Part shown: positions 1-12,101 of the stretch, piece by piece
Layout: every line of letters begins with the position of its first letter
How positions within the stretch are numbered: the first letter of the stretch is position 1
Source: an uncultured bacterium
Lineage (GTDB): Bacteria > Methylomirabilota > Methylomirabilia > Rokubacteriales > CSP1-6
Direction of reading: 5' to 3'
Length of the DNA: 12,101 nucleotides
Assembly: GCA_946479205.1 (NCBI GenBank)
Contig: CAMLFJ010000038.1
Coordinates: 1 to 12,101 of the forward strand
Notes under the pieces: generated by a model
The model's database searches: none
What the model saw: only the letters and a program-made list of their open reading frames with translations
Told to the model about the DNA's origin: nothing
Position numbers and translations under genes: made by a program

Positions 1-245
1 GCGGCCAGGCTCGTGATCGCGGCGTAGCGCGCGGCCTCGTAGCCCTGCTCGATCGAGAGGTCCGCGCCGACGATGCCGGGCAGGTACGGCCGGCCGTCCT
101 TCACCGGGGTGGTGCCGGAGAGGTAGAGCATGTTGCCGACCGCGAGGTGCGAGATGAACCGCGCCCCGGAGGCGTTGCCACGGTAGTGCTGATCGAGATC
201 GGGCAGGGTCAGGCCGAGCTGGGCGAGCTTCGCCTCGACGAGCAT
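1..245 (-). CDS. RidA/YjgF-family protein, partial (C-terminus beyond left edge)
   Basis: The first 81 codons of a RidA (YjgF/YER057c/UK114) family protein are visible on the minus strand, from ATG at 245 to the window edge. The translation contains the typical first half of the fold: GNMLYLSGTTPV, an extended loop with GIVGADLS, then the helix YEAARYAAITSLA. Family members are enamine/imine deaminases or unknown-function trimers; the region that would carry the catalytic arginine lies outside the window, so activity cannot be judged. The start lies 16 nt downstream of the crotonase stop codon, with a GGAG sequence about 10 nt before the ATG, so it is probably cotranscribed with the crotonase gene. 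It is a different protein from the second RidA homologue at 2841-3266. The family call is secure; the exact role is unknown. Confidence 0.85.
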   Translation of the reverse strand, partial: MLVEAKLAQLGLTLPDLDQHYRGNASGARFISHLAVGNMLYLSGTTPVKDGRPYLPGIVGADLSIEQGYEAARYAAITSLA

Positions 246-261
246 GGCGGCCGCGCTCCGG

Positions 262-1071
262 TCAGCGGCCCTGGAACTGCGGCCGGCGCTTCTCCGAGAA
301 GGCCTTCACGCCCTCCTGGTAGTCCTGGCTGTTGAAGCAGTCGGTGATCAGGCGATCCAGCATCGCGAGGTCGCGGTCGGCGGCGGGCCGGAGGAGCTGC
401 TCCACGGTGGCCTTGGCCGAGCGCAGGGTGAGCGGGGCGTTGCGCGCCATCGTCAGCGCGTAGTCGCGGGTGAAGCGCTCGAGGTCCGCCTTCGGCACCA
501 CCTGGTTCACCAGCCCCATGCGCAGCGCGTCCTGGGCGCTGAAGTCGGTGCGCGCGGTGAAGAACAGCTCCTTGGTGTACGCGGGCCCGATCAGGTGCAT
601 CAGCTTCTCCATGCCCTTGTAGTGGTAGCCGAGGCCGAGGCGGGCGGCCGGGATGCCGAAGCGGGCGTCATCGGCCGCGATGCGCATGTCGCAGGTGATC
701 GCGATGCCGACGCCGCCGCCGATGCAGAAGCCGTGGATCATCGCGAGCAGCGGCTTGCCGAGCGTGGTCAGCGACTCCGATCCGGCCGCCGAGATGCGCC
801 GGTACTCCTCCTCGTCGGCCGCGTTGCGCCGGCGGTCCTTGAACTGGGAGATGTCGGCGCCGGCCACGAAGGCGGTCTCGCCCGCTCCCCGGAGGATCAC
901 GACCCGGATCGCGCTGTCCGCGGAGAGCTCGCGCACGTACTCGGGCATGCGCTGCCACATCTCCTGGCTCACCGCGTTGCGCTTGTGCGGCTGGTTGAAG
1001 GTGATCCAGCCGATCGGGCCGTCCTTCTCCATCAGCAGCGTCTCGGCCTGGCTCGTCACGGTCTCGCTCAT
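262..1071 (-). CDS. Enoyl-CoA hydratase/isomerase (crotonase) family protein
   Basis: A 269-residue crotonase-superfamily protein of normal length. The oxyanion-hole motif AGADISQF is at residues 70-77 and the second oxyanion segment GGGVGIA at 118-124, followed by CDMRIAADDARFGIPAARLG (127-146). In true enoyl-CoA hydratases two glutamates sit in GGGCELA and FGQPE; here these positions are G122 and A142, so standard hydratase chemistry is doubtful and another acyl-CoA reaction of the superfamily is more likely. The reading frame is open upstream to 1182, but ATG 1071 is preferred because AGGAG lies 9 nt before it and the N-terminus then matches the family (TLLMEKDGPIGWITFNQP). It is followed by a RidA-family gene and is divergent from the acyl-CoA ligase, a pairing that suggests acyl-CoA catabolism. 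Specific substrate unknown. Confidence 0.9.
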   Translation of the reverse strand: MSETVTSQAETLLMEKDGPIGWITFNQPHKRNAVSQEMWQRMPEYVRELSADSAIRVVILRGAGETAFVAGADISQFKDRRRNAADEEEYRRISAAGSESLTTLGKPLLAMIHGFCIGGGVGIAITCDMRIAADDARFGIPAARLGLGYHYKGMEKLMHLIGPAYTKELFFTARTDFSAQDALRMGLVNQVVPKADLERFTRDYALTMARNAPLTLRSAKATVEQLLRPAADRDLAMLDRLITDCFNSQDYQEGVKAFSEKRRPQFQGR

Positions 1072-1180
1072 GGGCGGTCTCTCCTGGTCTCGGGGTGCCG
1101 TTCGCCCACTGGTGTATCCCGTCCGCCCGCTTCGCGCAAGTGCAGGAGTGCGGTATCCTCGATCGCCGCAGCCCCGGACC
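1072..1180. promoter_or_regulatory. Divergent intergenic region with weak promoter candidate
   Basis: This 109-bp spacer separates the divergently transcribed crotonase and acyl-CoA ligase genes and must hold the start signals for both. On the plus strand TATCCT (1154-1159) could be a -10 element, with a poor -35 (TTCGCG, 1131-1136) at 17 bp. No clear operator palindrome was seen. The assignment of promoter elements is weak; the regulatory role follows from gene layout. Confidence 0.35.
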
Positions 1181-2803
1181 ATGAACCGCCCGAGCCATCG
1201 CGACGCGTGCCAGGCCTTCCGCTGGGAGGAGAGCGCCCGGGCGATGGGCTTCGCCGCGGGGGCGCCGGTGAACCTCGGGCGCGCGATCGTGGACCGTCAC
1301 GCCGGTTCCGGCCGTGTCGCGCTCCGGTGGTTCGGCAAGCGCGGCGAGGCCCGGGCCTACACGTTCGACGACCTCGCCCGCCTGACCGCCCGGTTCGCCC
1401 ACGTGCTCCGCGAGGTGGGCGTGGGCCCGGGCGACCGGGTCGCGGGCTTCCTGCCGCGCATCCCCGAGATGCTCATCGCGATGATCGGGACCTGGAAGGT
1501 GGGGGCGGTCTACGTGCCGATCTTCACCGGGTTCGGCCCCGACGCGATCGACTTCCGCGTGCGCCACAGCGGCGCCCGGGTCCTGATCACGCAGTGGGAG
1601 CAGCGCGCCCGGCTCCCCGCGCCGCTCCCGGACGGGGTCACGGTCATCACGGTGGTGGACGGCGGCGCCGGCGCGCCGGGCGACGTGGACTTCTGGCGGG
1701 TCATGCACGGCCAGCCGGACGTGGCCCGATTGACCGACGTCCGTCGAGAGGATCCGGCGGTGCTGCTCTACACCTCGGGCTCGACCGGGCCGCCGAAGGG
1801 CGTGAAGATCGCGGCGAACTTCCCGGTGGCGATCCATCCGCACTTGATTCACGGCGCCGATCTTCGGCCCGACGACGTCTTCTGGCCGACCGGCGATCCC
1901 GGCTGGGGCTACGGGCTGGTCTGCTACATGGGCGCGCTCGCCCTGGGGGTGCCGGTGGTCTCGCACGAGGCGGCGCCGACGCCTCAGTTCTGCCTGGCGC
2001 GGCTGCGCGAGCTCGGCGTGACCAACCTCGCGACGACCCCGACGCTCCTGCGCGGAGTGATGGCGCTCGGCGCCGCGGCGGCCGGCGCCGGGGTGCGCGT
2101 GCGCAGCGCGAGCAGCTGCGGCGAGCCGCTCAACGCGGAGGTCGTGCGCTTCTTCCGCGAGCACTGGGGCGTCACCGTGCGCGACCAGTACGGCTCGAGC
2201 GAGCTCGGGCTGCCGATCGGCAACTTCGCCACCGTGGACATGACGGTCAAGGCAGGCTCCATGGGCCTGCCCCTGCCCGGCTGCACGATCGCGGTGGTGG
2301 ACGACGGCGGCCGCGAGGTGGCGCCGGACGTGGTGGGGCACGTCGGGATGAAGCCGCACCCGGAGGGCTACTACTCGCTCGGCTACTGGTGCGACGAGGA
2401 CCGGGACCGCGAGATGTACCGCGGCGAGTGGATGACCTGCGGGGACCTGGCGCGGCGCGACGGGGAGGGCTACTTCTGGTTCGAGGGCCGGGCCGACGAC
2501 GTGATCAAGAGCGCGGGGTACCGGATCGGCCCCTTCGAGGTCGAGAGCGCGATCCTGAAGCATCCGGCGGTGGCCGAGGCCGCGGTCGTGGGCAAGCCCG
2601 ACGCGCTGCGGGGCCAGATCGTCAAGGCCTACGTCGTGCTCAAGCCGGGCCTCGCGGTGCCGGGCGGGCTCGAGACGGAGATCGTGGACGTGGTGAAGAC
2701 GCACCTGGGCCGGCACCAGTACCCGCGGGAGATCGAGTTCCTCGATCAGCTCCCGAAGACCGAGACCGGCAAGATCCAGAGGTTCCTGCTGCGGGAGCGG
2801 TGA
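1181..2803 (+). CDS. Acyl-CoA synthetase (AMP-forming, ACS/medium-chain type)
   Basis: A 540-residue adenylate-forming enzyme that should activate a carboxylic acid with ATP and CoA in the cytoplasm. The motifs are complete and in order: P-loop YTSGSTGPPKG at 197-207, the A5 motif DQYGSSE at 335-341, GDL at 421-423, the hinge/A8 motif GRADDVIKSAGYRIGPFEVE at 436-455, and the A10 motif LPKTETGKIQRF at 524-535 with the catalytic lysine K531. The C-terminal domain resembles acetyl-CoA/medium-chain acyl-CoA synthetases; acid specificity cannot be read. ATG 1181 is chosen because the N-terminal segment AFRWEE is typical of the family, although no good Shine-Dalgarno precedes it; ATG 1244 is a less likely alternative. 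It heads the plus-strand group and is followed after 37 nt by the RidA-family gene. Confidence 0.93.
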   Translation: MNRPSHRDACQAFRWEESARAMGFAAGAPVNLGRAIVDRHAGSGRVALRWFGKRGEARAYTFDDLARLTARFAHVLREVGVGPGDRVAGFLPRIPEMLIAMIGTWKVGAVYVPIFTGFGPDAIDFRVRHSGARVLITQWEQRARLPAPLPDGVTVITVVDGGAGAPGDVDFWRVMHGQPDVARLTDVRREDPAVLLYTSGSTGPPKGVKIAANFPVAIHPHLIHGADLRPDDVFWPTGDPGWGYGLVCYMGALALGVPVVSHEAAPTPQFCLARLRELGVTNLATTPTLLRGVMALGAAAAGAGVRVRSASSCGEPLNAEVVRFFREHWGVTVRDQYGSSELGLPIGNFATVDMTVKAGSMGLPLPGCTIAVVDDGGREVAPDVVGHVGMKPHPEGYYSLGYWCDEDRDREMYRGEWMTCGDLARRDGEGYFWFEGRADDVIKSAGYRIGPFEVESAILKHPAVAEAAVVGKPDALRGQIVKAYVVLKPGLAVPGGLETEIVDVVKTHLGRHQYPREIEFLDQLPKTETGKIQRFLLRER

Positions 2804-2840
2804 TCCGGTCCATGGACCGCCCGCGCCCGAGGAGAATGCG

Positions 2841-3266
2841 ATGCCAGCCTACGAGGTGATCACGGGGCCGAGCCCCTGGCCCGCCCGCTACACGTTCTCG
2901 CCCGCCGTCCGCGCCGGCAACCTGCTCTTCATCTCGGGCATGACCGCGGGCGACGAGAGCGGCAAGATCGTCGGGCCCGGGGACATCGCGGCCCAGACGC
3001 GGTACATCTTCGAGAAGTTCGCCCGGCTGCTGGCCGCCGCGGGCGGTGGGTTCGAGCACATCGTGCAGACCACCGAGTACGTCACCACCACCGAGAACTA
3101 CGGCAAGACCGCCGAGGTGCGCCGCGAGTTCTTCAAGGGCCGCTTCCCGACCGCCACCGGTGTCATCGTGGCCGGCCTGCTGCGCGCGGGCGCCCTCATC
3201 GAGATCTCGGCGATCGCCGTGCTGCCCGACTCTTCCCCTCTCCCCTCCGGGGAGAGGGCAGGGTGA
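2841..3266 (+). CDS. RidA/YjgF-family protein with repeat-encoded C-terminal tail
   Basis: A 141-residue RidA-family protein, starting at ATG 2841 with GAGGAG 7 nt upstream. Family features include GNLLFISGMTAGD (27-38), the helix QTRYIFEKFARLLAAAG (52-68), and the C-terminal strand ALIEISAIAVLP (118-129). In E. coli RidA the catalytic Arg105 lies in FPARSCVEV; the aligned segment here is FPTATGVIV (102-110), so the arginine is replaced by A105 and imine deaminase activity of the classical kind is unlikely. The last about 11 residues ([11 protein letters not shown]) are beyond the normal family end and are encoded by a dispersed C/G-rich palindromic repeat. The stop codon at 3264-3266 is 11 nt before the next start codon, so coupling with the downstream MerB-like gene is likely. 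Confidence 0.9.
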   Translation: MPAYEVITGPSPWPARYTFSPAVRAGNLLFISGMTAGDESGKIVGPGDIAAQTRYIFEKFARLLAAAGGGFEHIVQTTEYVTTTENYGKTAEVRREFFKGRFPTATGVIVAGLLRAGALIEISAIAVLPDSSPLPSGERAG

Positions 3267-3272
3267 GGGGGG
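3235..3272 (+). repeat. Dispersed palindromic repeat, copy 1 (intragenic)
   Basis: A 10-bp perfect inverted repeat, CCCTCTCCCC (3236-3245) and GGGGAGAGGG (3249-3258), with a 3-nt loop, followed by CAGGGTGAGGGG. It is the reverse-complement orientation of the copies at 5005-5048 and 12018-12052. It overlaps the end of the RidA-family gene, encodes its last residues and stop codon, and its G-rich tail supplies the ribosome binding site (GGGGGGAG) of the next gene. It may also attenuate transcription, which is inference. Confidence 0.85.
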
Positions 3273-3277
3273 AGACC

Positions 3278-4000
3278 ATGCCCGACGCGCGACTGATGGA
3301 TCAAGCCTTCCAGCGCATCATGCGAAGCCTGGTGGACACCGGCCGCGCCCCGCATCACGCGGAGCTGGCGCGCGCCCTCGGCCTGCCCGTCGAGGCCGGC
3401 CGCGGCCTGCTCCGCGACGTCATGCAGGCGTACCCGATCGGCTGGCTCCACCCCGAGACGGACTACATCGCGTCGTTCCCGCCGCTGAACAATCTGCCCA
3501 CCCAGTACCGCATCACCGTACGGGGCGAGCAGCGGTGGTTCGCCCAGTGCGGGTTCGAGGCCACGTCCGCGACCTGGCTCTTCCCGGGCGAGACCGTCCG
3601 GGTGGACGCGCCGTGCCTCGACTGCGGCGATCCGGTCACGGTGGAGATGCGCGACGGGCGCGTCACGTGGGCGGATCCGCCCGGGCTCGTCGGCCATCTC
3701 GCCTTCGGGTTCGGGCCATCCCGCGGACGATCGTACTACCTCTGAACCGGCATGAACCTCTTCCGGTCGGAAGAGCATGCGCGGCGGTGGAGCGAGTTTC
3801 AGCCGAGGTCCGAGGAGGGGTTCATCACGCTCGAGCAGCTCGCGGGATTCTTCGGCACCGAGAGCCGCCGGCACATGCTGGACGGCGACTACCTCTCGTC
3901 CTGGTATCCGCGCCGCGCCGCGGAGCGCCGCGCCTATCTCGAGCGGATCGGCAAGACCTCGCCGTTCTGGATGGGGACCCCGGACCCGCCCGCGTCCTGA
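3278..4000 (+). CDS. MerB-like (alkylmercury lyase family) selenoprotein, UGA at 3743-3745 read as selenocysteine
   Basis: A 240-residue protein if TGA 3743-3745 is read through; both halves are in the same frame. Residues 1-65 resemble the MerB winged-helix-like N-terminal domain (AELARALGLPVEAGRGLL), and the core matches MerB: LPTQYRITVRGEQRWFAQCGFEA, WLFPGETVRV, then APCLDCGDPVTV and PPGLVGHL. C91 aligns with catalytic Cys96, C113 with Cys117, E94 with Asp99, and the UGA codon (residue 156) with catalytic Cys159: LUTGMNLFRSEEHARRW against FCCHVHFFAS in the R831b enzyme. The C-terminal part continues the family (EEHARRW, then ITLEQLAGFFG). A SECIS-like hairpin follows the UGA at once. ATG 3278 is chosen over GTG 3263 because GGGGGGAG lies 5 nt before it. 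MerB cleaves carbon-mercury bonds, but no other mer gene is present, so the substrate is uncertain. Alternative: a nonsense-mutated pseudogene, judged much less likely. Confidence 0.85.
3743..3745 (+). other. In-frame UGA, predicted selenocysteine codon (U156)
   Basis: TGA interrupts the MerB-like frame between CTC and ACC. It coincides with the second catalytic cysteine of the MerB family. Coding similarity to MerB continues in the same frame on both sides with no indel. The ATG at 3752 has no ribosome binding site and would begin inside the hairpin, so a separate downstream gene is not supported. Confidence 0.83.
3747..3784 (+). promoter_or_regulatory. Bacterial SECIS-like hairpin
   Basis: A 38-nt stem-loop begins one nucleotide after the UGA. 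The upper stem is 7 perfect pairs (CTCTTCC 3758-3764 with GGAAGAG 3769-3775) closing a GGUC loop (3765-3768). A 5'-side bulge AAC (3755-3757) separates it from a 5-bp stem (GCATG 3750-3754 with CATGC 3776-3780), then a single bulged G3781 and three more pairs (3747-3749 with 3782-3784). The E. coli fdhF SECIS has the same loop core GGUC, a 5'-side bulge and a loop 18 nt after the UGA; here the spacing is 19 nt. This is the structure SelB recognises to deliver Sec-tRNA. The element is inside the coding sequence, as is usual in bacteria. Confidence 0.83.
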
Positions 4001-4035
4001 TGAGGTAGACTCGGGGCCCGAAAGGAGCCCTGCCC

Positions 4036-4998
4036 ATGAAAGCGATCCGCGTCTCGGAGTACGGCGGTCCGGCGGTCCTGAAGATCGAGGAGATTCCCAC
4101 GCCCCAGCCGGGGCCCAGCCAGGTGCTGGTGCGCATCCACGCGGTCGGCGTCAACCCGGTGGACACCTACCTGCGCAGCAACACCGACAACCGCGGGCCC
4201 AAGCTGCCCTACACTCCGGGGGCGGACGCGGCCGGCGTCATCGAGGCGGCCGGCACCGGAGTGACCGCGGTCAAGAAGGGCGACCGCGTCTACGTGGGCG
4301 GCACCGTGACCGGCGCCTACGCGGAGTATGCGGTGTGCGAGCAAGGGCAGGTGCACCCGCTGGCCGCGGGCGCCACCTTCCCGCAGGGCGCGGCCATGAA
4401 CGTCCCCTACGCCACCGCCTACCACGCGCTCTTCAACCGCGCCCACGGCGAGGCGGGGGAGACGGTGCTGGTCCACGGGGCGAGCGGCGGGGTGGGCATC
4501 GGGGCGGTGCAGCTCGCGCGGGCGCGGGGGCTCACCGTCATCGGCACCGCGAGCACCGAGAAGGGGCGCCGCCTCGTCGCGGAGCAGGGCGCGCACCACG
4601 TGCTCGATCACACCGCGGCGGGTTATCTCGAGGAGTGCGTCAAGCTGACCGGCGGGCGCGGGCCCGACATCATCATGGAGATGCTGGCCAACGTGAATCT
4701 CCAGAAGGATCTGAACACCATCGCGCTGCGGGGCCGCATCGTGGTCATCGGCAATCGCGGCAATACCGAGATCAACGCGCGGATCGCCATGAACAAGGAC
4801 GCGGCGATCCTGGGGATGGCGCTCAACCACGCCACGCCGGCCCAGCTCGCGGGCATCCACGCCGCGCTCGTCGAGGGGCTCCGCAACGGCTCGCTGCGCC
4901 CGGTCATCGCCCTGGAGCTGCCGCTGGCTCAGGCCGCGCGCAGCCACGAGGCGGTGATGGAATCAGGCCACCACGGCAAGGTCGTCCTCGTCTCTTGA
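4036..4998 (+). CDS. Zinc-independent NADPH:quinone oxidoreductase (zeta-crystallin-like MDR)
   Basis: A 320-residue medium-chain dehydrogenase/reductase. The N-terminal GroES-like domain starts MKAIRVSEYGGPAVL and has VGVNPVDTYLR (38-47) and PYTPGADAAGVIEAAG (58-73); the Rossmann motif GASGGVG is at 148-154, followed by the cofactor strand GLTVIGTAST. The zinc-ligand pattern of alcohol dehydrogenases is absent, so it belongs with quinone oxidoreductases that reduce quinones or activated alkenes with NADPH. ATG 4036 has an AAAGGAG site 8 nt upstream. It begins 35 nt after the MerB-like stop codon and is probably in the same transcript. A functional link to the selenoprotein (for example redox supply) is speculation. 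The gene ends at the palindrome at 5005-5048, a likely terminator. Confidence 0.92.
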   Translation: MKAIRVSEYGGPAVLKIEEIPTPQPGPSQVLVRIHAVGVNPVDTYLRSNTDNRGPKLPYTPGADAAGVIEAAGTGVTAVKKGDRVYVGGTVTGAYAEYAVCEQGQVHPLAAGATFPQGAAMNVPYATAYHALFNRAHGEAGETVLVHGASGGVGIGAVQLARARGLTVIGTASTEKGRRLVAEQGAHHVLDHTAAGYLEECVKLTGGRGPDIIMEMLANVNLQKDLNTIALRGRIVVIGNRGNTEINARIAMNKDAAILGMALNHATPAQLAGIHAALVEGLRNGSLRPVIALELPLAQAARSHEAVMESGHHGKVVLVS

Positions 4999-5004
4999 GC
5001 ACCC

Positions 5005-5048
5005 CCCCTCACCCTGCCCTCTCCCCCTCGGCGGGGGAGAGGGTGGGG
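5005..5048. terminator. Palindromic repeat copy 2, probable bidirectional terminator
   Basis: The 50-bp gap between convergent genes is filled by CCCTCACCCTG followed by an 11-bp perfect inverted repeat (5017-5027 with 5033-5043, loop TCGGC). The position between two convergent stop codons suits a bidirectional terminator; there is no U-tract, so it would have to work by stem strength alone or with Rho. It belongs to the same dispersed family as 3235-3272 and 12018-12101. Confidence 0.65.
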
Positions 5049-5816
5049 CTAGACGAAGTCGGCGCGGACGGGGCCGACCGGGGTGAAGGTCGCGGCGATG
5101 CGGTCGCCGCGGGCGATGGCGTACTGGCGGGTGAACGAGCCCGACATCACCTTCATGCCGGCCTCCAGCGCCAGGCCGAACTCGGCGAGCTTGTTGGCGA
5201 GCCAGGCGATGGAGGCCGCCGGCGTGCCCAGCACCGCAGCACCGGTGGCCCGGTCGGGGGGGCCGCCGTTGACGGAGAGCTCCAGCGCCACCGCGGCGAG
5301 GTCGAAGCCCGCGGGCACCGGTACCGCCGCGCCGGTCACGTAGGCGCGCTGCTGCGCGTTGTCGGCCAGGCTCACGTTGAGATCGGCCGCGAAGTCGCCG
5401 CGCTTCTCGATGATCTCGAAGGCCGGCGCCATCACGCTGAGCGCGGCCTGGGCCTGCGCGTCGGTGACGCCGGGCCCCCGTAGCGTACGGCCCATCGTGA
5501 GGCATAGCTCGTTCTCGAAGCCCGGATTGATCAGGTCCGCGAACTGAAAGCGCGTGCCGCTCGGCCGCTCGCCACTGGCGAGCAGGAAGCCCAGCACCGG
5601 CTCGTGCACCTTCTGCTGGATCTGCATCGCCTTCGAGGTGAGGCCGACCTTCCACCCGGCCTGCCGCTCGCCCGCCGCCACGTGGCGCGCGAGCAGGCCG
5701 AGCTGCACCCGGTAGGCCTCCTCGCGGCTCAGGCGATTCATCCACTCGGCGGGCGGGGCGGTCCGGCTCCGGGCCGCGGTCCAGAACGCGTCGATGGCTT
5801 GCTCGGCGGTGCTCAC
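5049..5816 (-). CDS. 2-oxopent-4-enoate hydratase / 4-oxalocrotonate decarboxylase-like protein (FAH superfamily)
   Basis: A 255-residue member of the MhpD/XylI/XylJ group, which hydrates 2-hydroxypentadienoate or decarboxylates 4-oxalocrotonate in the lower part of meta-cleavage pathways. Seen in the sequence: AGWKVGLTSKAMQ (53-65), the metal-binding ENE triad region GFENELCLTMGR (99-110, E101 and E103), and a third acidic ligand region PAFEIIEKR (131-139, E134). Hydratase and decarboxylase cannot be told apart by eye. The start is GTG 5816: it overlaps the TGA of the upstream oxidoreductase gene by 4 nt (GTGA), has GAGGAG about 6 nt before it, and gives the family-typical N-terminus. Translational coupling is likely. 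No ring-cleavage dioxygenase is in the window, so the pathway link is incomplete. Confidence 0.88.
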   Translation of the reverse strand: MSTAEQAIDAFWTAARSRTAPPAEWMNRLSREEAYRVQLGLLARHVAAGERQAGWKVGLTSKAMQIQQKVHEPVLGFLLASGERPSGTRFQFADLINPGFENELCLTMGRTLRGPGVTDAQAQAALSVMAPAFEIIEKRGDFAADLNVSLADNAQQRAYVTGAAVPVPAGFDLAAVALELSVNGGPPDRATGAAVLGTPAASIAWLANKLAEFGLALEAGMKVMSGSFTRQYAIARGDRIAATFTPVGPVRADFV

Positions 5817-8188
5817 GGCTCTCCTCGGCGGACCTGGCAGATATAGGACCGCAGCGCGACCGTCCCGCTGATCGGATCGGCGGTGTCGGGATCGATCAGG
5901 TTGTTGTAGTTGGCGCTGGCCGCGCCCTCCGCCGGATAGCCCCCGAGCCCCAGCGGCTCGCACGGCTGCCACCAGCCGAACTGGGCGCACACCACGTCGG
6001 CGGCCAGGCTCGGATTGAGCCGGGCCCGTGCGCGCATCGTGGCCCGCGGCGTCTCGATCAGCACCCAGTCGTCGCTCGCGATGCCGCGGGCTAGGGCGGC
6101 GGCCGGATGCAGCTCGACCTGCGGGTCGGGGCTGTGCCGCCGCAGGCGCGCCAGGCTCCGGTGCTGGCTGTGGCAGAACTGCACGACCTTGGCGGTGGTG
6201 AGCTGGAGCGGGAAGCGCGCCGCGAGGTCGGGGCGGCTGACCGGGCTCGCCGCGGGCTCGAGGTACTCGGGCAGCGGCGTCTGGCCGTGCTGCTGGAGCT
6301 GCGCGGAGAAGATCTCCACCCGGCGGCTCGGCGTCGCGAAGCCGACCGGGCCATTGGCGCCGCGGGCCGCGTAGCGCTTGAAGCGCGACTCGACCGCGGT
6401 ACGCACGCCGCCCGGCTGCGCGCGGAGCTGCTCGAGGGTGACCCCGGTGGGCTCCAGCATGAAGCGGTGCCCCGCGTCCTCGTCGCCGTTCCAGAGGCGG
6501 TCGCCGAGCCCGAGCCGCCGGGCCAGCTCGCAGACGATCCAGATGTCCGACCGCGCCTCGCCCCGCGGGGCCAGCACCGCGGGCCGGAGCTGGACGTGCT
6601 GCTCGCCGTCCTGCGTCGGGCCGAAGCCCACGCGGAGGCCCTCGCGCTCCCACGCGGTGGACACCGGCAGCACCACGTCGGCCAGCGCCGCGGTGGGGGT
6701 CAGGAAGAGATCGGCGTAGACCAGGAAGTCGAGGCTGGTGAGCGCGGCGCGGGCGGTGGCCGCGCCCGGGGCGGAGAGCAGCAGGTTGGTGCCGAAGCCG
6801 ACCATGCCGCGCACCGGGTAGGGGGCGCCGTGGAGCATGGCGCGGTAGGCGTCGGCCGCGGTGGGCCAGCCCTGGCGTGCGGGGCCGAGCGGCCGTTCGG
6901 CCAGGCCGAGCGCCTTCGCGCGCTGGCGCTCCGGGAGCAGCGAGAGCGGAGCGAGGTCGTTGACCACCGGCCGGCTCGGCCGCACGTTGCCGCCGGGCGC
7001 GTCGAAGCAGCCGGTGAGCGCATAGAGGAGCGAGAGCGCGCGCACGGTCTGGCTCGCGTTGGTGTGCTGCTCGAGCCCGGTCCAGTGGAAATAGGACACC
7101 GGGCGGCGGTCCCACAGGAGCCGCGCGGTCTCGACGATCTGGGCGGCCGGGACGCCGGTGATCTGCTCGACGCGCTCGGGCGGGTACTCCCGGCAGAGCG
7201 CGGCGTAGGTCTCGAACGCGGGCACGCACGTGACCGGGCCGGAGCGCGTCATGCACCGCACGGTCCCGTCGAGCTGTGGATCGGCGATCGGTTCGATGAA
7301 GTCGGCGGCGGCCGGATCGTATGCGATCGGCCGCCCGGCCGCGCGATCCCAGGCCACGTAGTGCGCGGGGCTGCCGACCGCGGAGAGATCGGCGGCGGTG
7401 AGGAGGCGGCCGTTGTCGGCGCGCACCAGGAAGGAGCCGTTCGACCAGTCGCGGATGAAGTCGCGATCGTACCAGCCCTCCGCCAACATGACGGAGGCCA
7501 ATCCGAGCGCGAGCGCGCCGTCGGTGCCCGGGCGCACGCGCAGCCACTGGTCCGCCCGGGCCGCCGCGCCCGCGCGCCGCGGGTCCACCACGATCAGGGC
7601 CGCCCCGCGCGCCGTCACCTCCGCGACCGCGGTGGCCTGGGCCAGGTAGGTGGCGGACGGGTTGTGGCCCCAGAGCAGGAGGCAGCCGGTGCGATCGAAG
7701 TCGGGCGTGCCGATGTCCACGCCGAAGGTGAACGGGGTGACGAAGTCCCGGTGCCAGGCGCACAGCTCCTCGCCCCACACCAGGTTCGGGCTCCCGAAGG
7801 CCCGGATGAGCCGCAGGATCCACAGGAAGCCGTCGGAGACCGCGGTCCCCGCGGGCGTGGTGCAGCCGAAGGCCACACCCTCGGGCCCGTGCCGCCGGGC
7901 CACCTCCCGTATCCTGGCGGCCGTCCAGTCGAGCGCTTCGTCCCAGCTGATCCGCTGCCAGCCCGCGTCCGGATCGGACTTCGGCCGGGTGCGGCGCATC
8001 GGGTACAGCAGCCGGTCCTCCGCGTAGACCAGCTCCGGGGCCGCGCGGCCCTTCACGCAGAGGCTGGCGCCGGTGGGATGCGAGGGATCAGGCTCGACCG
8101 CGACCAGGCGCCCGTCCTCCACGACCGAGACGCAGCCGCAGCGCGAGCGGCAGAGGGCGCAGAAGCCCGGGATGCGCCGGGTGGTCAT
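5813..8188 (-). CDS. Molybdopterin-dependent oxidoreductase (DMSO reductase superfamily) with [4Fe-4S] domain
   Basis: A 791-residue bis-MGD molybdo- or tungstoenzyme. The N-terminal iron-sulfur domain has C10-x2-C13-x3-C17-x26-C44, with the usual basic residue after it (K46). The molybdopterin domains follow, with the segment WGEELCAWHRDF around 138-149 where the metal ligand normally lies (C143 is a candidate), LLLWGHNPSAT, and the C-terminal dinucleotide-binding domain from about residue 660 (LQLTTAKVVQFCHSQHRS ... YNNLIDPDTADPISGT). There is no Tat signal, so it should be cytoplasmic. ATG 8188 shares one base with the SDR stop codon (TGATG), showing tight coupling. No separate electron-transfer or membrane subunit is adjacent, so either it uses a distant partner or it is a non-redox or self-contained member such as a transhydroxylase or hydratase type. 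Substrate unknown. Confidence 0.9.
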   Translation of the reverse strand: MTTRRIPGFCALCRSRCGCVSVVEDGRLVAVEPDPSHPTGASLCVKGRAAPELVYAEDRLLYPMRRTRPKSDPDAGWQRISWDEALDWTAARIREVARRHGPEGVAFGCTTPAGTAVSDGFLWILRLIRAFGSPNLVWGEELCAWHRDFVTPFTFGVDIGTPDFDRTGCLLLWGHNPSATYLAQATAVAEVTARGAALIVVDPRRAGAAARADQWLRVRPGTDGALALGLASVMLAEGWYDRDFIRDWSNGSFLVRADNGRLLTAADLSAVGSPAHYVAWDRAAGRPIAYDPAAADFIEPIADPQLDGTVRCMTRSGPVTCVPAFETYAALCREYPPERVEQITGVPAAQIVETARLLWDRRPVSYFHWTGLEQHTNASQTVRALSLLYALTGCFDAPGGNVRPSRPVVNDLAPLSLLPERQRAKALGLAERPLGPARQGWPTAADAYRAMLHGAPYPVRGMVGFGTNLLLSAPGAATARAALTSLDFLVYADLFLTPTAALADVVLPVSTAWEREGLRVGFGPTQDGEQHVQLRPAVLAPRGEARSDIWIVCELARRLGLGDRLWNGDEDAGHRFMLEPTGVTLEQLRAQPGGVRTAVESRFKRYAARGANGPVGFATPSRRVEIFSAQLQQHGQTPLPEYLEPAASPVSRPDLAARFPLQLTTAKVVQFCHSQHRSLARLRRHSPDPQVELHPAAALARGIASDDWVLIETPRATMRARARLNPSLAADVVCAQFGWWQPCEPLGLGGYPAEGAASANYNNLIDPDTADPISGTVALRSYICQVRRGEP

Positions 8189-8937
8189 CAGACCGCGAGG
8201 AACCCTCCGTCCACCACCAGCTCGGTCCCCGAGATGTACGAGGCCTCGTCGGAGGCCAGGAACAGGACCGCGTGGGCGACCTCCTCGATCCGCCCCTCCC
8301 GCCTCAGCGGGACCACGTCCAGCAGCGGCTTCCGCCATGCCGGGTCGGCCGAGCCCTTCGAGGTCCGCATCGGGGGCAGGAAGCCCGGGTGCACCGAGTT
8401 CACGCGGATGCCGTCCTTGCCGTACTGCACCGCGCCCGACTTGGTCATGATGCGCACCGCGCCCTTGGAGGCGTTGTAGCCCATGTGGATCTTGTCCTGC
8501 CCCACGAAGCCGGAGATCGACGAGATGTTCACGATGGACCCCCCGCCGCCCCGCCGCATGACCGGTACCGCGTGCTTCATGCCGAGGAAGACGCTCTTGG
8601 CGTTGATGTCCATGAGGCGATCCCACGCGGCGGTGGACTCGTAGTCGGGATCGTGGGTGCCGCTGATCCCCGCGTTGTTGACCAGGATGTCGAGCCGACC
8701 GTACGCGGCCACCGTGGCCTTGATCGCGGCCTCCCAGTCCGCCTCGCTCGCGACGTCGAGCTTCACGAACTGCGCCTTCCCGCCCGCGCCGGTGATGTTG
8801 GCCGCGACCTTTTGCCCGTCGGCGTCCACGTCGGCCACGATCACGCTCGCGCCCTCGCGCGCGAAGATCACCGCCTCGCTCTCACCCATTCCGTGCGCCG
8901 CCCCGGTGACGATGGCCACTTTGCCCTTGAGTCGCAT
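8188..8937 (-). CDS. SDR-family NAD-dependent dehydrogenase (glucose 1-dehydrogenase/3-oxoacyl reductase-like)
   Basis: A 249-residue classical short-chain dehydrogenase. Cofactor motif TGAAHGMG at 11-18, acidic residue after the second strand (VADVD, D36) that favours NAD over NADP, NNAG at 87-90, and the catalytic tetrad N112, S139/S140, Y154 and K158 (YNASKG). The C-terminal GTELVVDGGF is typical. ATG 8937 is preceded by GGAGGAG at 7 nt, a strong ribosome binding site. It is the first gene of the minus-strand group with the molybdopterin oxidoreductase and the hydratase, so it probably oxidises an alcohol or diol intermediate of the same pathway; the substrate cannot be read. Its promoter must lie in 8938-9050, which contains a perfect DnaA-box 9-mer. 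Confidence 0.92.
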   Translation of the reverse strand: MRLKGKVAIVTGAAHGMGESEAVIFAREGASVIVADVDADGQKVAANITGAGGKAQFVKLDVASEADWEAAIKATVAAYGRLDILVNNAGISGTHDPDYESTAAWDRLMDINAKSVFLGMKHAVPVMRRGGGGSIVNISSISGFVGQDKIHMGYNASKGAVRIMTKSGAVQYGKDGIRVNSVHPGFLPPMRTSKGSADPAWRKPLLDVVPLRREGRIEEVAHAVLFLASDEASYISGTELVVDGGFLAV

Positions 8938-8972
8938 CGCGGTCTCCTCCTTGAAGTCAGGATGATAGAGGT

Positions 8973-8991
8973 TTATCCACAGCTATTCACA
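8973..8991 (+). promoter_or_regulatory. Two tandem DnaA-box-like sites (left cluster)
   Basis: TTATCCACA at 8973-8981 is identical to the consensus DnaA box; CTATTCACA at 8983-8991 differs at the first position from TTWTNCACA. They lie in an AT-richer stretch upstream of the SDR gene, followed by ACAAAACTTTCTTTGTC. They could be DnaA sites acting on transcription or part of an origin-like element. Binding is not shown by sequence alone. Confidence 0.5.
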
Positions 8992-9011
8992 AAACTTTCT
9001 TTGTCATCGGC

Positions 9012-9041
9012 TTGACACATCACCACCGACTTCACTAGGCT
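9012..9041 (+). promoter_or_regulatory. Sigma70-type promoter candidate
   Basis: A perfect -35 TTGACA (9012-9017) and a -10-like TAGGCT (9036-9041) are separated by 18 bp. The expected start of transcription (about 9048-9050) coincides with ATG 9050, so the mRNA would be leaderless. The -10 element is poor in its third to fifth positions. Confidence 0.5.
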
Positions 9042-9049
9042 CCTCATTG

Positions 9050-9292
9050 ATGCAGGCCAGTCGCAAACCATTGGCGAAGGTCGAGGGGCGCCGGCGGCTC
9101 CGGTTGAGCGGCCTCACCATCGCGTGGCGCGGCACGCCGGATCTCGATGACTGGGTCGCGTATCTCGCGACCCGCACGAAGTCGAAGAAGCTGATCCTCG
9201 CTGACCAGGTGTCCGAACGTAAGGTCAACGCGCTGCTGGCGCGGCTGGCCAGCCTCTCGCGGCGACAGGTCGAGAAGCTGGCCAAGGGCTAG
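9050..9292 (+). CDS. Small basic protein of unknown function (hypothetical, 80 residues)
   Basis: I do not recognise this protein. It is 80 residues, strongly basic (many R and K in residues 5-18 and 40-48), with a predicted helical second half (VNALLARLASLSRRQVEKLAKG, 59-80). There is no membrane segment, cysteine or obvious catalytic motif. ATG 9050 has no Shine-Dalgarno but sits at the expected transcription start of a TTGACA promoter, which supports leaderless translation; TTG 9047 is an in-frame alternative. It is flanked on both sides by DnaA-box-like sequences and is the only plus-strand gene between two minus-strand operons. Two open minus-strand frames overlap it but lack start signals. 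A nucleic-acid-binding role is possible from charge only. Confidence 0.5.
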   Translation: MQASRKPLAKVEGRRRLRLSGLTIAWRGTPDLDDWVAYLATRTKSKKLILADQVSERKVNALLARLASLSRRQVEKLAKG

Positions 9293-9317
9293 AGCACCGC
9301 TCCAGGCGGGCAGGCGG

Positions 9318-9349
9318 CTATCCACAGTTGTGGATAGGCCTGTGCATAG
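9318..9349. promoter_or_regulatory. Three DnaA-box-like sites (right cluster) forming an inverted repeat
   Basis: CTATCCACA (9318-9326, plus) and its perfect inverse TGTGGATAG (9329-9337) are separated by GT, and TGTGCATAG (9341-9349) is a third similar site on the minus strand. Each is one base from the TTWTNCACA consensus. They follow the small gene by 25 bp. The inverted pair could instead be the site of a dimeric regulator; a 2-nt loop makes it a poor full-length hairpin. Confidence 0.45.
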
Positions 9350-9395
9350 CTCCACCTGAATCCCCGTAACTAGCTGTTTAGGCAGGTCTTTTTCT

Positions 9396-10262
9396 TTACC
9401 GCTTCTCGACGGTCCGGCGCTCCACTTCGAGCAGTTTCTCGAGCTCGATCACGCCCAGCATCTCGTGCTCCAGCGGGCCCCAGTCGCTCCGCGCCTGGCC
9501 CGCGCCGAAGCCCGCGGCGAGGTCCGCGTAGACCTTCTTCCACGCCGCGAACGCGGCGAGCAGCGGCGTGGACGGATCCGCGACGATGCGGAAGCCGAGC
9601 GCGCCCAGATCCGCGAGCGTCATGCCGTGACCGGCGAGACCGCCGCGCCCCGCGAGGTACATGAGCGGCCCGCCGAGGCGCTCGCCGATCAGGCGCAACT
9701 GCTCGGGCGTGTGGGCCATCGAGAGCAGCAGCACGTCCGCGCCCGCCTTGCGGTACGCCTCGCCGCGCCGGAGCGCGTCGTCCATCGTGCTCGCCCGCAC
9801 CGCGTTGGTGCGCCCGATGATGAGGAAGTCCGGGTTGCGCCGCGCCGCCACCGCGGTCGCGAGCTTGGCCGCCATCAGCTCCGTCGGGATCATGTGCTCG
9901 ATGCCGATGTGGTGGTGCGCGCGCTTGGGCACGAGCTGGTCCTCGATCTCGATGGCCGCGAAGCCCGCCGCCTCGCTCATGCCGATCGTGCGGTGCATGT
10001 GCATCGGGTCGCCGTACCCGCACGCCCCGTCCAGGATGAGCGGCAGCCGCGAGACCGCCCCGATGTCCAGCGCGGCCTGGCACATCTCGGTGAGGTTGAG
10101 GTTGGCCTCGAGCGCCACCTTCTGATAGCCGGTGGCCCCGCCGCCCAGGTAGCCGGCCGGGAAGCCGGCCGCCTCGACCATGCGCGCCATGAGCGGGTTC
10201 AGCACGAGCGGCGCGGTGACGGGCAGGGCGCCCTGCAGGAGGGCGCGGAGGGGCGTGGGCAT
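9396..10262 (-). CDS. Isocitrate lyase/PEP mutase superfamily protein
   Basis: A 288-residue protein of the ICL/PEPM family (2-methylisocitrate lyase, PEP mutase, oxaloacetate decarboxylase and relatives). Seen: LILDGACGYGDP (75-86) where the family has the metal-binding DxDTGYG, IEIEDQLVPKRAHHH (104-118) in place of IEDQ..PKRCGH, and IIGRTNA (148-154) for ARTDA. D78, E107, D108 and R151 are kept, but the second metal-site aspartate is A80 and the catalytic cysteine of the lyases is A115. It is therefore unlikely to be an isocitrate or methylisocitrate lyase; a decarboxylase or other 2-oxoacid carbon-carbon or phosphorus-carbon bond enzyme is possible. ATG 10262 has GGGAG about 6 nt upstream. 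It begins 21 nt after the Rieske beta-subunit stop and is last in that operon. Confidence 0.86.
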   Translation of the reverse strand: MPTPLRALLQGALPVTAPLVLNPLMARMVEAAGFPAGYLGGGATGYQKVALEANLNLTEMCQAALDIGAVSRLPLILDGACGYGDPMHMHRTIGMSEAAGFAAIEIEDQLVPKRAHHHIGIEHMIPTELMAAKLATAVAARRNPDFLIIGRTNAVRASTMDDALRRGEAYRKAGADVLLLSMAHTPEQLRLIGERLGGPLMYLAGRGGLAGHGMTLADLGALGFRIVADPSTPLLAAFAAWKKVYADLAAGFGAGQARSDWGPLEHEMLGVIELEKLLEVERRTVEKR

Positions 10263-10283
10263 GCGGGTCTCCCGGGATCGCGG

Positions 10284-10745
10284 CTAGAGGGGAATCGCGA
10301 GCAGGGTGTCCACGCGGCTGCTGTCGCAGACCACGAGCCGCTCGCGGAAGCGCAGGGTGCCGCCCTCGTCCACCATGGTGTCCACGTACCGGCCGGTGGC
10401 GAAGAGGTCCATGGTGCCGTCGCGCATCACGCGCACCACCAGGAACGGGGTCTCCGCCTGCACGGTGTCGCCGGCCCCGGCGCGGAGGGCGGGGAGGCCG
10501 ACCAGGTGCCGGTAGGCCTGCCGCTCGTAGATGTTGGCCTCCCGGAGCGCGGTGACGCGGTCCTTCAGCATGCCCCGGGAGTCGGCGTAGACGAGACCGG
10601 CGGGCAGGCCCCGCCGGTAGTTGTCGGCGGAGGTGATCTTGTAGACGCAGGGGTCGGTGAAGAAGTCCGGCCAGCTCTCGAGCCGGTCGTCGTCGATGGC
10701 CCGCGCGTACTCCGCGTTGAGCTGGGAGACGCGCTCGGCCAGCAT
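10284..10745 (-). CDS. Aromatic-ring-hydroxylating dioxygenase, beta subunit
   Basis: A 153-residue NTF2/SnoaL-fold small subunit. The N-terminus LNAEYARAIDDDRLESWPDFFTDPCVYKITSADNYRRGLP and the central IYERQAYRHLVG with RFRERLVVCDSSRVDTLLAIPL near the end are typical of beta subunits of Rieske oxygenases of the anthranilate/salicylate group. It has no cofactor and supports the alpha-subunit hexamer. Its ATG at 10745 follows the alpha-subunit stop TAG with no spacer (TAGATG), so translation is coupled. Length is normal for the family. Confidence 0.9.
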   Translation of the reverse strand: MLAERVSQLNAEYARAIDDDRLESWPDFFTDPCVYKITSADNYRRGLPAGLVYADSRGMLKDRVTALREANIYERQAYRHLVGLPALRAGAGDTVQAETPFLVVRVMRDGTMDLFATGRYVDTMVDEGGTLRFRERLVVCDSSRVDTLLAIPL

Positions 10746-11987
10746 CTAGTCTTCCATGTACCGCCGGTACGCCTTCCAGAATCCGCGCACCGAGGCCTCG
10801 GTGGCGCGCGTCTCTTGCGATTCGGCGCCCTCGCCGCCCATGTTGACCACGGACAGCTCGTCCCCCGCCGCGGCGACCCCGCGTTGCACGAAGCCGCCCA
10901 CGCAGCCGTCCTCCATCGAGACGTAGCCGGCGGGCCCGACCAGGTTCGACTGCTTCATGCGGCGGCGCTGCATGTCCGCGTCGTCGTCGGCGAACCCCAG
11001 GTAGGTCCAGTGCAGCTCCATCGCCCCCGGCCCCTTGGGCAGAACCTGGCGCACCGCGAGGGAGTTGTGGATCTGCTGGAGGACGAAATTCGGGAAGACA
11101 GTGAGGATCTGGAGCTGGATGTCGTCGCCGAACTCGTTGACCGCGTCCAGCAGACTCGGGTCGGCGAGCCGGTAGTTCTGGTTCTCCGAGCGGATGCCCT
11201 GATCCCGGTAGGCGGTGCTGCTCGCGTCGTCGGCCCGCTGGATGGTGTAGCTGGCGTGGTGACCGCCGTCGGGGCTCACCGTGATTCCACCACCCTGGGT
11301 GAGCCGAGTGATTCTGAACGTCCCGAAGAAGGTATGGAGCAGGCTCGCGTGGTAGGTGTCCTTCACGTTCTCCACGTAGAGCTTCCAGTTATTGGGCAGA
11401 GCCTGCGTGAAGCGGCCCATCACCCGGGCTTCCTTGTGCAGCACGCGCCGGAGCCGGCCCAGCACCTCGTCGCCCAGGTATTCCTCGATGGGCGGGGTGT
11501 CGGACGACAGGGTCGCGAAGACCAGCCCGGCCAGCGCGGTGGTGCGCAGCTTGCGCGGCCCGTGGTCGGCCTTGCAGAAGGAGGCGGGCATGCCGCCCTT
11601 GCCGTTGCTGCCCTTCTCGAAGGCGATGCCGACCAGACTGCCCGCGAGGTCGTAGGTCCAGGCGTGGTAGATGCACTGGAAGTGGCTGCCGGCGGACCCG
11701 CTGTCGTCCAGAGCGATCAGGGCGCCGCGGTGGGCGCAGCGGTTCTCGAAGGCGTGGATCTGGCCCTGCGCCCCCCGCACCACGACGATCGGCATCTCGC
11801 CGAGGAAGGAGGTGCGGTAGTCGCCCGCCTTGGGGAGGTCCGACTCGAGGCAGGCGTAGCTCCAGACCGGCCCCTCGAAGATGCGGCGCAGCTCGGTGTG
11901 GTAGTTCGCCTCGTCCTGGTAGACCCAGTACGGCACGCGCGTCAATGACGCGCCCGGCCATTCGTGGAGCGAACCCCCGTCTGCCAT
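10746..11987 (-). CDS. Rieske aromatic-ring-hydroxylating dioxygenase, alpha subunit (anthranilate/salicylate-type)
   Basis: A 413-residue catalytic subunit. The Rieske [2Fe-2S] motif is C84-x-H86 ... C105-x2-H108 (CAHRGA, CIYHAW). The mononuclear iron site is [11 protein letters not shown] with H213 and H218 and the bridging D210, with D360 (MEDG) as the third ligand. The N-terminus [13 protein letters not shown]...[22 protein letters not shown] and the THASLLH-type site with FFGTFRI resemble anthranilate 1,2-dioxygenase and salicylate hydroxylase large subunits. The substrate is probably a substituted benzoate or related aromatic acid, but this cannot be fixed. ATG 11987 is chosen because further upstream codons are encoded by the palindromic repeat; it has no Shine-Dalgarno, so leaderless initiation is possible. 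Ferredoxin and reductase genes are not in the window. Confidence 0.93.
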
Positions 11988-12017
11988 GCGCCGGGGAGAA
12001 TAGCACAGCGCGCGGGG

Positions 12018-12101
12018 CCCCTCACCCTGCCCTCTCCCCAGAGGGGAGAGGGAGTTGGCCGGAGAACCCACACCCCACAGGGGAGAGGGCTGGGGTGAGG
12101 G
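12018..12101. repeat. Composite palindromic repeat, copies 3 and 4 in inverted orientation
   Basis: CCCTCACCCTGCCCTCTCCCC (about 12018-12039) with its local arm GGGGAGAGGG (12043-12052) is followed, after a short unique stretch, by GGGGAGAGGG-CTGGGGTGAGGG (12080-12101). The two outer units are inverted to each other and can form a large imperfect stem, while each also contains a 10-bp hairpin. It lies directly upstream of the Rieske alpha gene and reaches the window edge. It is the same dispersed family as 3235-3272 and 5005-5048. Confidence 0.8.

Follow-up and report, generated by a model that had tools for sequence, protein, structure and literature searches.

The stretch analysed here (hereafter, the window) comprises 12,101 nucleotides of an uncultured Rokubacteriales bacterium (assembly GCA_946479205.1, contig CAMLFJ010000038.1, positions 1 to 12,101) and carries on its plus strand a frame of 240 residues, related to the organomercurial lyase MerB, that runs from an ATG to a TGA stop at 3998–4000 and is broken by a single internal stop, itself a TGA, at codon 156 (table 1). 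Open reading frame calling splits this gene into a piece of 160 residues (155 if counted from the ATG) and a piece of 82 residues. An earlier note on this DNA had proposed that the two short frames are one gene with a single TGA, the first bearing the N-terminal and the second the C-terminal part of MerB, and this proposal is borne out: the Pfam MerB model (PF03243) matches the read-through protein across the TGA (residues 73–187, 59.6 bits for a gathering cut-off of 27), and the alignment of the protein with solved MerB structures likewise extends beyond it. Downstream of the TGA, 22 of the 36 codon differences between the window and its relative in genome G086 fall at third positions and no gap is found, which is the pattern expected of coding sequence. 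Since TGA is the ordinary stop of 7 of the 11 window genes examined, the MerB-like gene counted, the genetic code is not reassigned.

Table 1. Features of the MerB-like gene of the window, and its two-TGA relatives
Feature	Position	Strand	Evidence
MerB-like selenoprotein gene, predicted selenocysteine at 156	3278..4000	+	frame, Pfam match, TGA in relatives, alignment
Cys91 codon (TGC), equivalent of MerB Cys96	3548..3550	+	alignment with MerB
Glu94 codon, equivalent of MerB Asp99	3557..3559	+	alignment with MerB
Cys113 codon, invariant in A2; aligns with one Cys of MerB and MerB2	3614..3616	+	alignment
In-frame TGA, predicted selenocysteine, equivalent of MerB Cys159	3743..3745	+	column content, alignment
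82-residue frame, a separate protein in ordinary annotation; here the C-terminal part of the MerB-like protein	3752..4000	+	
SECIS-like hairpin: 7-bp stem 3758–3764/3769–3775, GGTC loop 3765–3768	3758..3775	+	conservation, shuffles, fdhF control
Two-TGA genes of relatives: L162–L184 (without L169), L110, L085			hairpin after each TGA

In MerB, Cys96 and Cys159 act as metal ligands and Asp99 as proton donor. Alignment with solved MerB places Cys91 of the window protein on Cys96, Glu94 on Asp99, and codon 156 on Cys159, in agreement with the residue assignments of the earlier note; that codon 156 corresponds to Cys159 and not to Cys160 is settled by the aligned structure 3f2g, a C160S mutant. 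Glu is invariant at the Asp99 place in the 25 sequences of our A2 alignment, picked from the window and the 44 loci described below, and the structure model predicted for the window protein has the MerB fold. One family-A copy, L009 (G007:C81), has an in-frame TAG close to its N-terminus and was excluded from this alignment.

The interruption recurs across relatives. Database searches returned 638 related proteins, and among the 120 listed, 105 are exactly 155 residues long, that is, cut at codon 156. Of 44 loci retrieved from genome contigs, 42 span the site (L015 and L043 did not align across it), and every one of these carries TGA, including loci labeled in database records as Rokubacteria, Nitrospinota, Tectomicrobia, Deltaproteobacteria, and Acidimicrobiia; a survey of 95 genomes from the phylum of locus L001 gave matches in 51. 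A pseudogene or sequencing error might be suspected of a frame that rests on a single window, but the identical TGA of the 42 loci lies on different contigs, and the third-position bias beyond the TGA and the gapless comparison with G086 likewise speak against decay; the conservation of the TGA refutes this explanation in practice, and we give it practically no weight.

The Cys159 column holds 113 TGA, 11 Cys, and no other residue in 124 rows (3 of 127 rows without a letter were left out, and some genes are present twice), so that the in-frame TGA is aligned with Cys of homologues, as in selenoproteins. The Cys rows all belong to a second, more MerB-like group B (L061–L066, L081, and L124–L148; Pfam score of L061, 107 bits), which itself mostly has TGA at this column (28 selenocysteine [Sec] and 11 Cys forms among 39 different sequences). 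Among the closest relatives, family A, TGA is universal in the loci fetched; by the protein tree, the nearest is that of G086 (89% identity), followed by Rokubacteria/Methylomirabilota loci. The earlier note had predicted a column of Cys in close relatives and TGA in others, and had named random residues at the position as evidence against Sec: only Cys or Sec occur, but the Cys forms sit in the distant group B and not among close relatives. A search for an uninterrupted close relative returned six matches, of which P0002 and P0006 carry MerB; P0002 has Cys at the site but is short of about 20 residues, and P0006 departs from the frame ahead of the site.

A conserved hairpin follows the TGA. 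Its stem begins 12 nucleotides past the TGA and its loop lies at 19 nucleotides, the arrangement of a bacterial selenocysteine insertion sequence (SECIS), in which a hairpin with a G-rich apical loop stands soon after the TGA; the fdhF element of Escherichia coli, located under fdhF in that genome, shows an identical GGTC loop at 18 nucleotides from its TGA. We compared 88 sequences differing in their 60 nucleotides, two of which, containing N, were dropped for synonymous shuffles. In family A, all 7 pairs are formed in 41 of 47 sequences and 6 pairs in the remaining 6; the 28 Sec forms of group B have 7 pairs in 21 cases, 6 in 6, and 5 in 1, when none of the 11 Cys forms has the 7-pair stem and three have 6 pairs. 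The GGTC loop is found in 65 of the 75 Sec sequences. Against synonymous-codon shuffles, the mean energy z is −2.67 and −2.01 in the two Sec sets versus 0.03 in the Cys set, and the Cys form L132, whose peptide (FFRSEDH) is near-identical, uses different codons and has no hairpin. In about six Acidimicrobiales sequences, three base pairs are altered on both sides, with a Glu to Gln change in the protein; 17 such double-sided cells were counted, against 0 of 500 shuffles, and every slid register gives worse values. An Rfam scan returned three matches, each below its gathering score and SECIS not among them.

The hairpin also bears on whether the locus could encode two separate proteins, the first stopping at the TGA and the second starting at the ATG at 3752. 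This ATG is in frame shortly past the TGA and is invariant in the 47 family-A sequences, as such a start might be; yet in group B its place is taken by Ile, Leu, or Thr whether the form is Sec or Cys, the reading frame of the Cys forms stays open across the site, and only the Sec forms retain the hairpin. Two products are thus very improbable.

The genomes that carry the gene tend to possess the means of decoding it. In G086, SelA, SelB, and tRNA-Sec are found on one contig, and among 20 carrier genomes, SelA exceeds its Pfam cut-off in 19 (weakly in G017), SelB in 18, and tRNA-Sec in 18; tRNA-Sec was also found in all 12 of the additional genomes examined. The three models are not entirely specific, since in 14 control genomes they exceed their cut-offs in 2, 2, and 5, and the best tRNA-Sec matches (64–77 bits) are set apart from the others (at most 49 bits). 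As SelA is over cut-off in 83 of the 95 genomes surveyed from the L001 phylum, its presence does not separate Sec from Cys forms of MerB. Decoding of the TGA as some other residue, by a reassigned code or simple readthrough, finds no point in its favor: TGA terminates most of the window genes examined, Cys is always the alternative letter in the column, and the nearest relative has the machinery just described. We regard it as extremely improbable and predict that codon 156 is decoded as Sec.

In some relatives, the second metal-ligand column holds a TGA as well. This was seen in L110 (G061) and L085 (G017), where a second TGA occupies the Cys96 column. Querying the database with the 90 residues that precede the first TGA of L110 yielded 50 relatives, of which 48 stop exactly there (ending, by the protein records alone, in WYAL for 25, WYGQ for 18, WYGL for 3, WYAI for 1, and RYGQ for 1) and the other two continue to about the second site. 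Of 395 genomes from the phylum of L016, 43 gave matches, and the matches with E < 1e-40 number 27, comprising 26 with two internal TGA and 1 with one. Among the loci fetched, TGA stands at both mercury-ligand columns in 25 rows, representing 24 genes in 24 genomes (L085 is the same as L161), and wherever these two columns have a letter it is Cys or Sec. L085 excepted, no two-Sec gene has an extra stop in its aligned part. In L085, a third in-frame TGA replaces a conserved Gly, and this copy may be decayed or affected by an assembly error; L185 and L186 have both TGA, but the two do not share a frame.

The Cys96-site TGA has a hairpin of its own, with 6 of 6 pairs in all 26 different two-Sec sequences versus 11 of 46 different Cys96 sequences, and a GGT-type loop in 18 of the 26. 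Compared with synonymous shuffles it stands out less (z of −1.62 against −0.57), since the peptide itself favors the hairpin. SelA is present in each of the 23 two-Sec genomes tested and SelB in 22 of them (in G131, SelB is not over cut-off), and the 24th, G017, has SelB and tRNA-Sec with a weak SelA. On a tree of 112 rows built by a quick method and still containing near-copies, the two-Sec genes fall into more than one clade, requiring four changes in the Cys96 column (three forced by starred branches) and three in the Cys159 column (two forced). These genes escape notice since their database entries break off after about 90 residues and hold only this first part, some under the names hypothetical protein or Lrp/AsnC regulator. 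No clear shared neighbor was found beside them within flanks of about 1.5 kb, nor any relative in the viral contigs scanned with the L110 protein. We consider it probable that the window protein, with its single Sec, belongs to a branch of MerB whose metal site was taken over by selenium in steps, and that the products of the related two-Sec genes, with a SECIS hairpin for each TGA, would be diselenolate organomercurial lyases.

Mercury has a higher affinity for selenolates than for thiolates, and the antagonism of selenium and mercury is a long-standing topic. The frame, the TGA and its column, the conserved hairpin, and the Sec genes of close relatives are read directly from sequence. In the interpretation that we consider probable, the gene encodes a MerB-family protein with a predicted MerB fold, whose TGA at the Cys159 place is predicted to be decoded as Sec with the help of the downstream hairpin; its likely function, for which metal, substrate, and catalysis are inferred, would be to cleave carbon–metal bonds, most likely in methylmercury or a similar organomercurial. 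In such a mechanism, SelB and Sec-tRNA would bind the hairpin during translation so that Sec is inserted at 156, the metal would be held between the Cys91 thiolate and the Sec156 selenolate, and Glu94, as the counterpart of Asp99, would protonate the carbon and release the organic group. The protein may possibly be a stand-alone demethylase, or have another organometal as substrate.

Several observations weigh against this interpretation. The window protein misses the MerB equivalog cut-offs by far (NF033555, 23.2 vs. 200 bits; PRK13239, 28.5 vs. 193 bits) and, among seven superfamily proteins including it, scores on the SaoL model NF040728 range from 29.4 to 54.6 bits for a cut-off of 140, so that membership in these families was rejected; the MerB proton donor is replaced by Glu94, and P0002, a relative known from its protein record alone, has Cys at the TGA site, albeit without about 20 residues. 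As to the hairpin, its excess in pair count alone is weak (median chance by synonymous shuffling of 0.061 in A and 0.224 in B) because the peptide itself already favors the stem; two covariation measures fall within the shuffles (pairs changed on both sides, 98/500; pair types, 306/500), the double changes of the related Acidimicrobiales sequences may be one evolutionary event, and the single-sequence fold of 61 nucleotides is unexceptional (z of −1.26, with 22 of 200 shuffles equally good). In the carrier G009, whose assembly may be incomplete, SelA, SelB, and tRNA-Sec are all below cut-off. Finally, no mer gene was found among the ten window neighbors tested, and MerA exceeds its cut-off in only 2 of the 95 genomes surveyed from the L001 phylum (G039:C11 and G098:C181), neither with a family-A match; the MerB of G098 is the Cys form L132.

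Part of this evidence would suit a MerB-fold selenoprotein with another job, such as the cleavage or binding of a different organometal (arsenic, tin, or lead) or a part in redox chemistry or metal sensing, and not mercury detoxification. The Glu in place of Asp99, the neighbors, which are catabolic, the rarity of MerA, the low equivalog scores, and the classification of SaoL as a general organometallic lyase all go in this direction; on the other hand, both metal-ligand columns are exclusively Cys or Sec wherever they have a letter, and MerB2, which has Ser aligned at the Asp99 place, was nonetheless solved with mercury bound. We therefore deem this alternative possible yet rather unlikely, and organomercurial cleavage by a Sec-containing MerB relative remains our preferred reading.

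The neighbors in question encode an enoyl-CoA hydratase, an AMP ligase, RidA, a quinone oxidoreductase, and a ring-hydroxylating dioxygenase. On the minus strand, positions 5049–12071 hold catabolic genes for an FAA hydrolase-like protein, a molybdopterin oxidoreductase, an SDR, a member of the PEP mutase family, and the beta and alpha subunits of a ring-hydroxylating dioxygenase. G086 has four neighboring genes in common with the window and is the only genome where the conserved-neighborhood comparison found the window's gene order; other recurrent neighbors are confined to sets of Acidimicrobiia-type loci or to four mixed loci. We also observed MerA-like flavoprotein matches under the MerA cut-off that contain one or two in-frame TGA (G101, G102, G056, G076, and others), which are possibly further selenoproteins.

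From a broader perspective, our observations suggest that several uncultured lineages (Rokubacteria, Nitrospinota, Acidimicrobiia, and Deltaproteobacteria, by their database labels) carry organometal-handling selenoproteins that are present in databases only as truncated pieces. A natural MerB series of Cys/Cys, Cys/Sec, and Sec/Sec metal sites would allow a direct test of the effect of selenium on C–Hg cleavage and metal release.

The earlier note had supposed that a Sec-containing MerB may be new, and this holds for the present family and for the two-Sec form and not for the general idea. Going by the tables of published surveys, Sec MerB-like proteins as such are already known: a "MerB-like organometallic lyase SaoL" with motif CU is tabulated as a selenoprotein in a 2026 review, with mention of an SAO operon and citing Haft and Gwadz 2023 (PMC13188914), an "Alkylmercury lyase MerB-like protein" (PMC9312934) and an "Organic mercuric lyase MerB2" (PMC7435645) figure among predicted selenoproteins, and Sao genes are named in passing elsewhere (PMC10418091). 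The 2008 Global Ocean Sampling paper has mercuric transport selenoproteins, with "MerB" and "lyase" absent from its main text (PMC2398784), and the terms looked for are not mentioned in PMC5029168 and PMC12013277. We found no description of a two-Sec MerB in the literature searched, whose coverage is incomplete, so that one may exist. A metal-binding double selenoprotein, MbdU, is named in PMC13188914 and was considered as an identity for the two-Sec genes; three two-Sec proteins gave no match to its model NF045648, the presence of which in the model library is unconfirmed.

Among known systems, SaoL resembles the window protein in being a MerB relative tabulated with Sec, and its profile aligns with the window protein; on L110, the profile match ends at residue 156, which is the second Sec of L110, so that the Sec of SaoL may occupy this position or one close to it. 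By the curated model, the window family is nevertheless distinct from SaoL: P0001 scores 32.6 bits against the cut-off of 140, no ABC-transport-like operon was found among the ten window neighbors tested, the local motif is LUTGMNLF where the tabulated SaoL motif is CU, and the protein has 240 residues compared with 159 model positions. The MerB-like and MerB2 selenoproteins tabulated in PMC9312934 and PMC7435645 share the MerB family, in entries that give neither a Sec position nor a sequence. Canonical MerB (NF033555, PRK13239; PDB 3f0o, 3f2f) has in common with the window protein the fold, as predicted by the model, and the Cys96 and Cys159 columns, and differs in that the window protein has a predicted Sec at the Cys159 place and Glu at the Asp99 place, reaches only 23.2 of the 200 bits, and has no mer gene among the window neighbors tested. 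The best solved match, both by sequence and by VIA-align, is MerB2 (PDB 5c17), which likewise does without Asp99 but has Cys at the Cys159 place, where the window protein has its predicted Sec.
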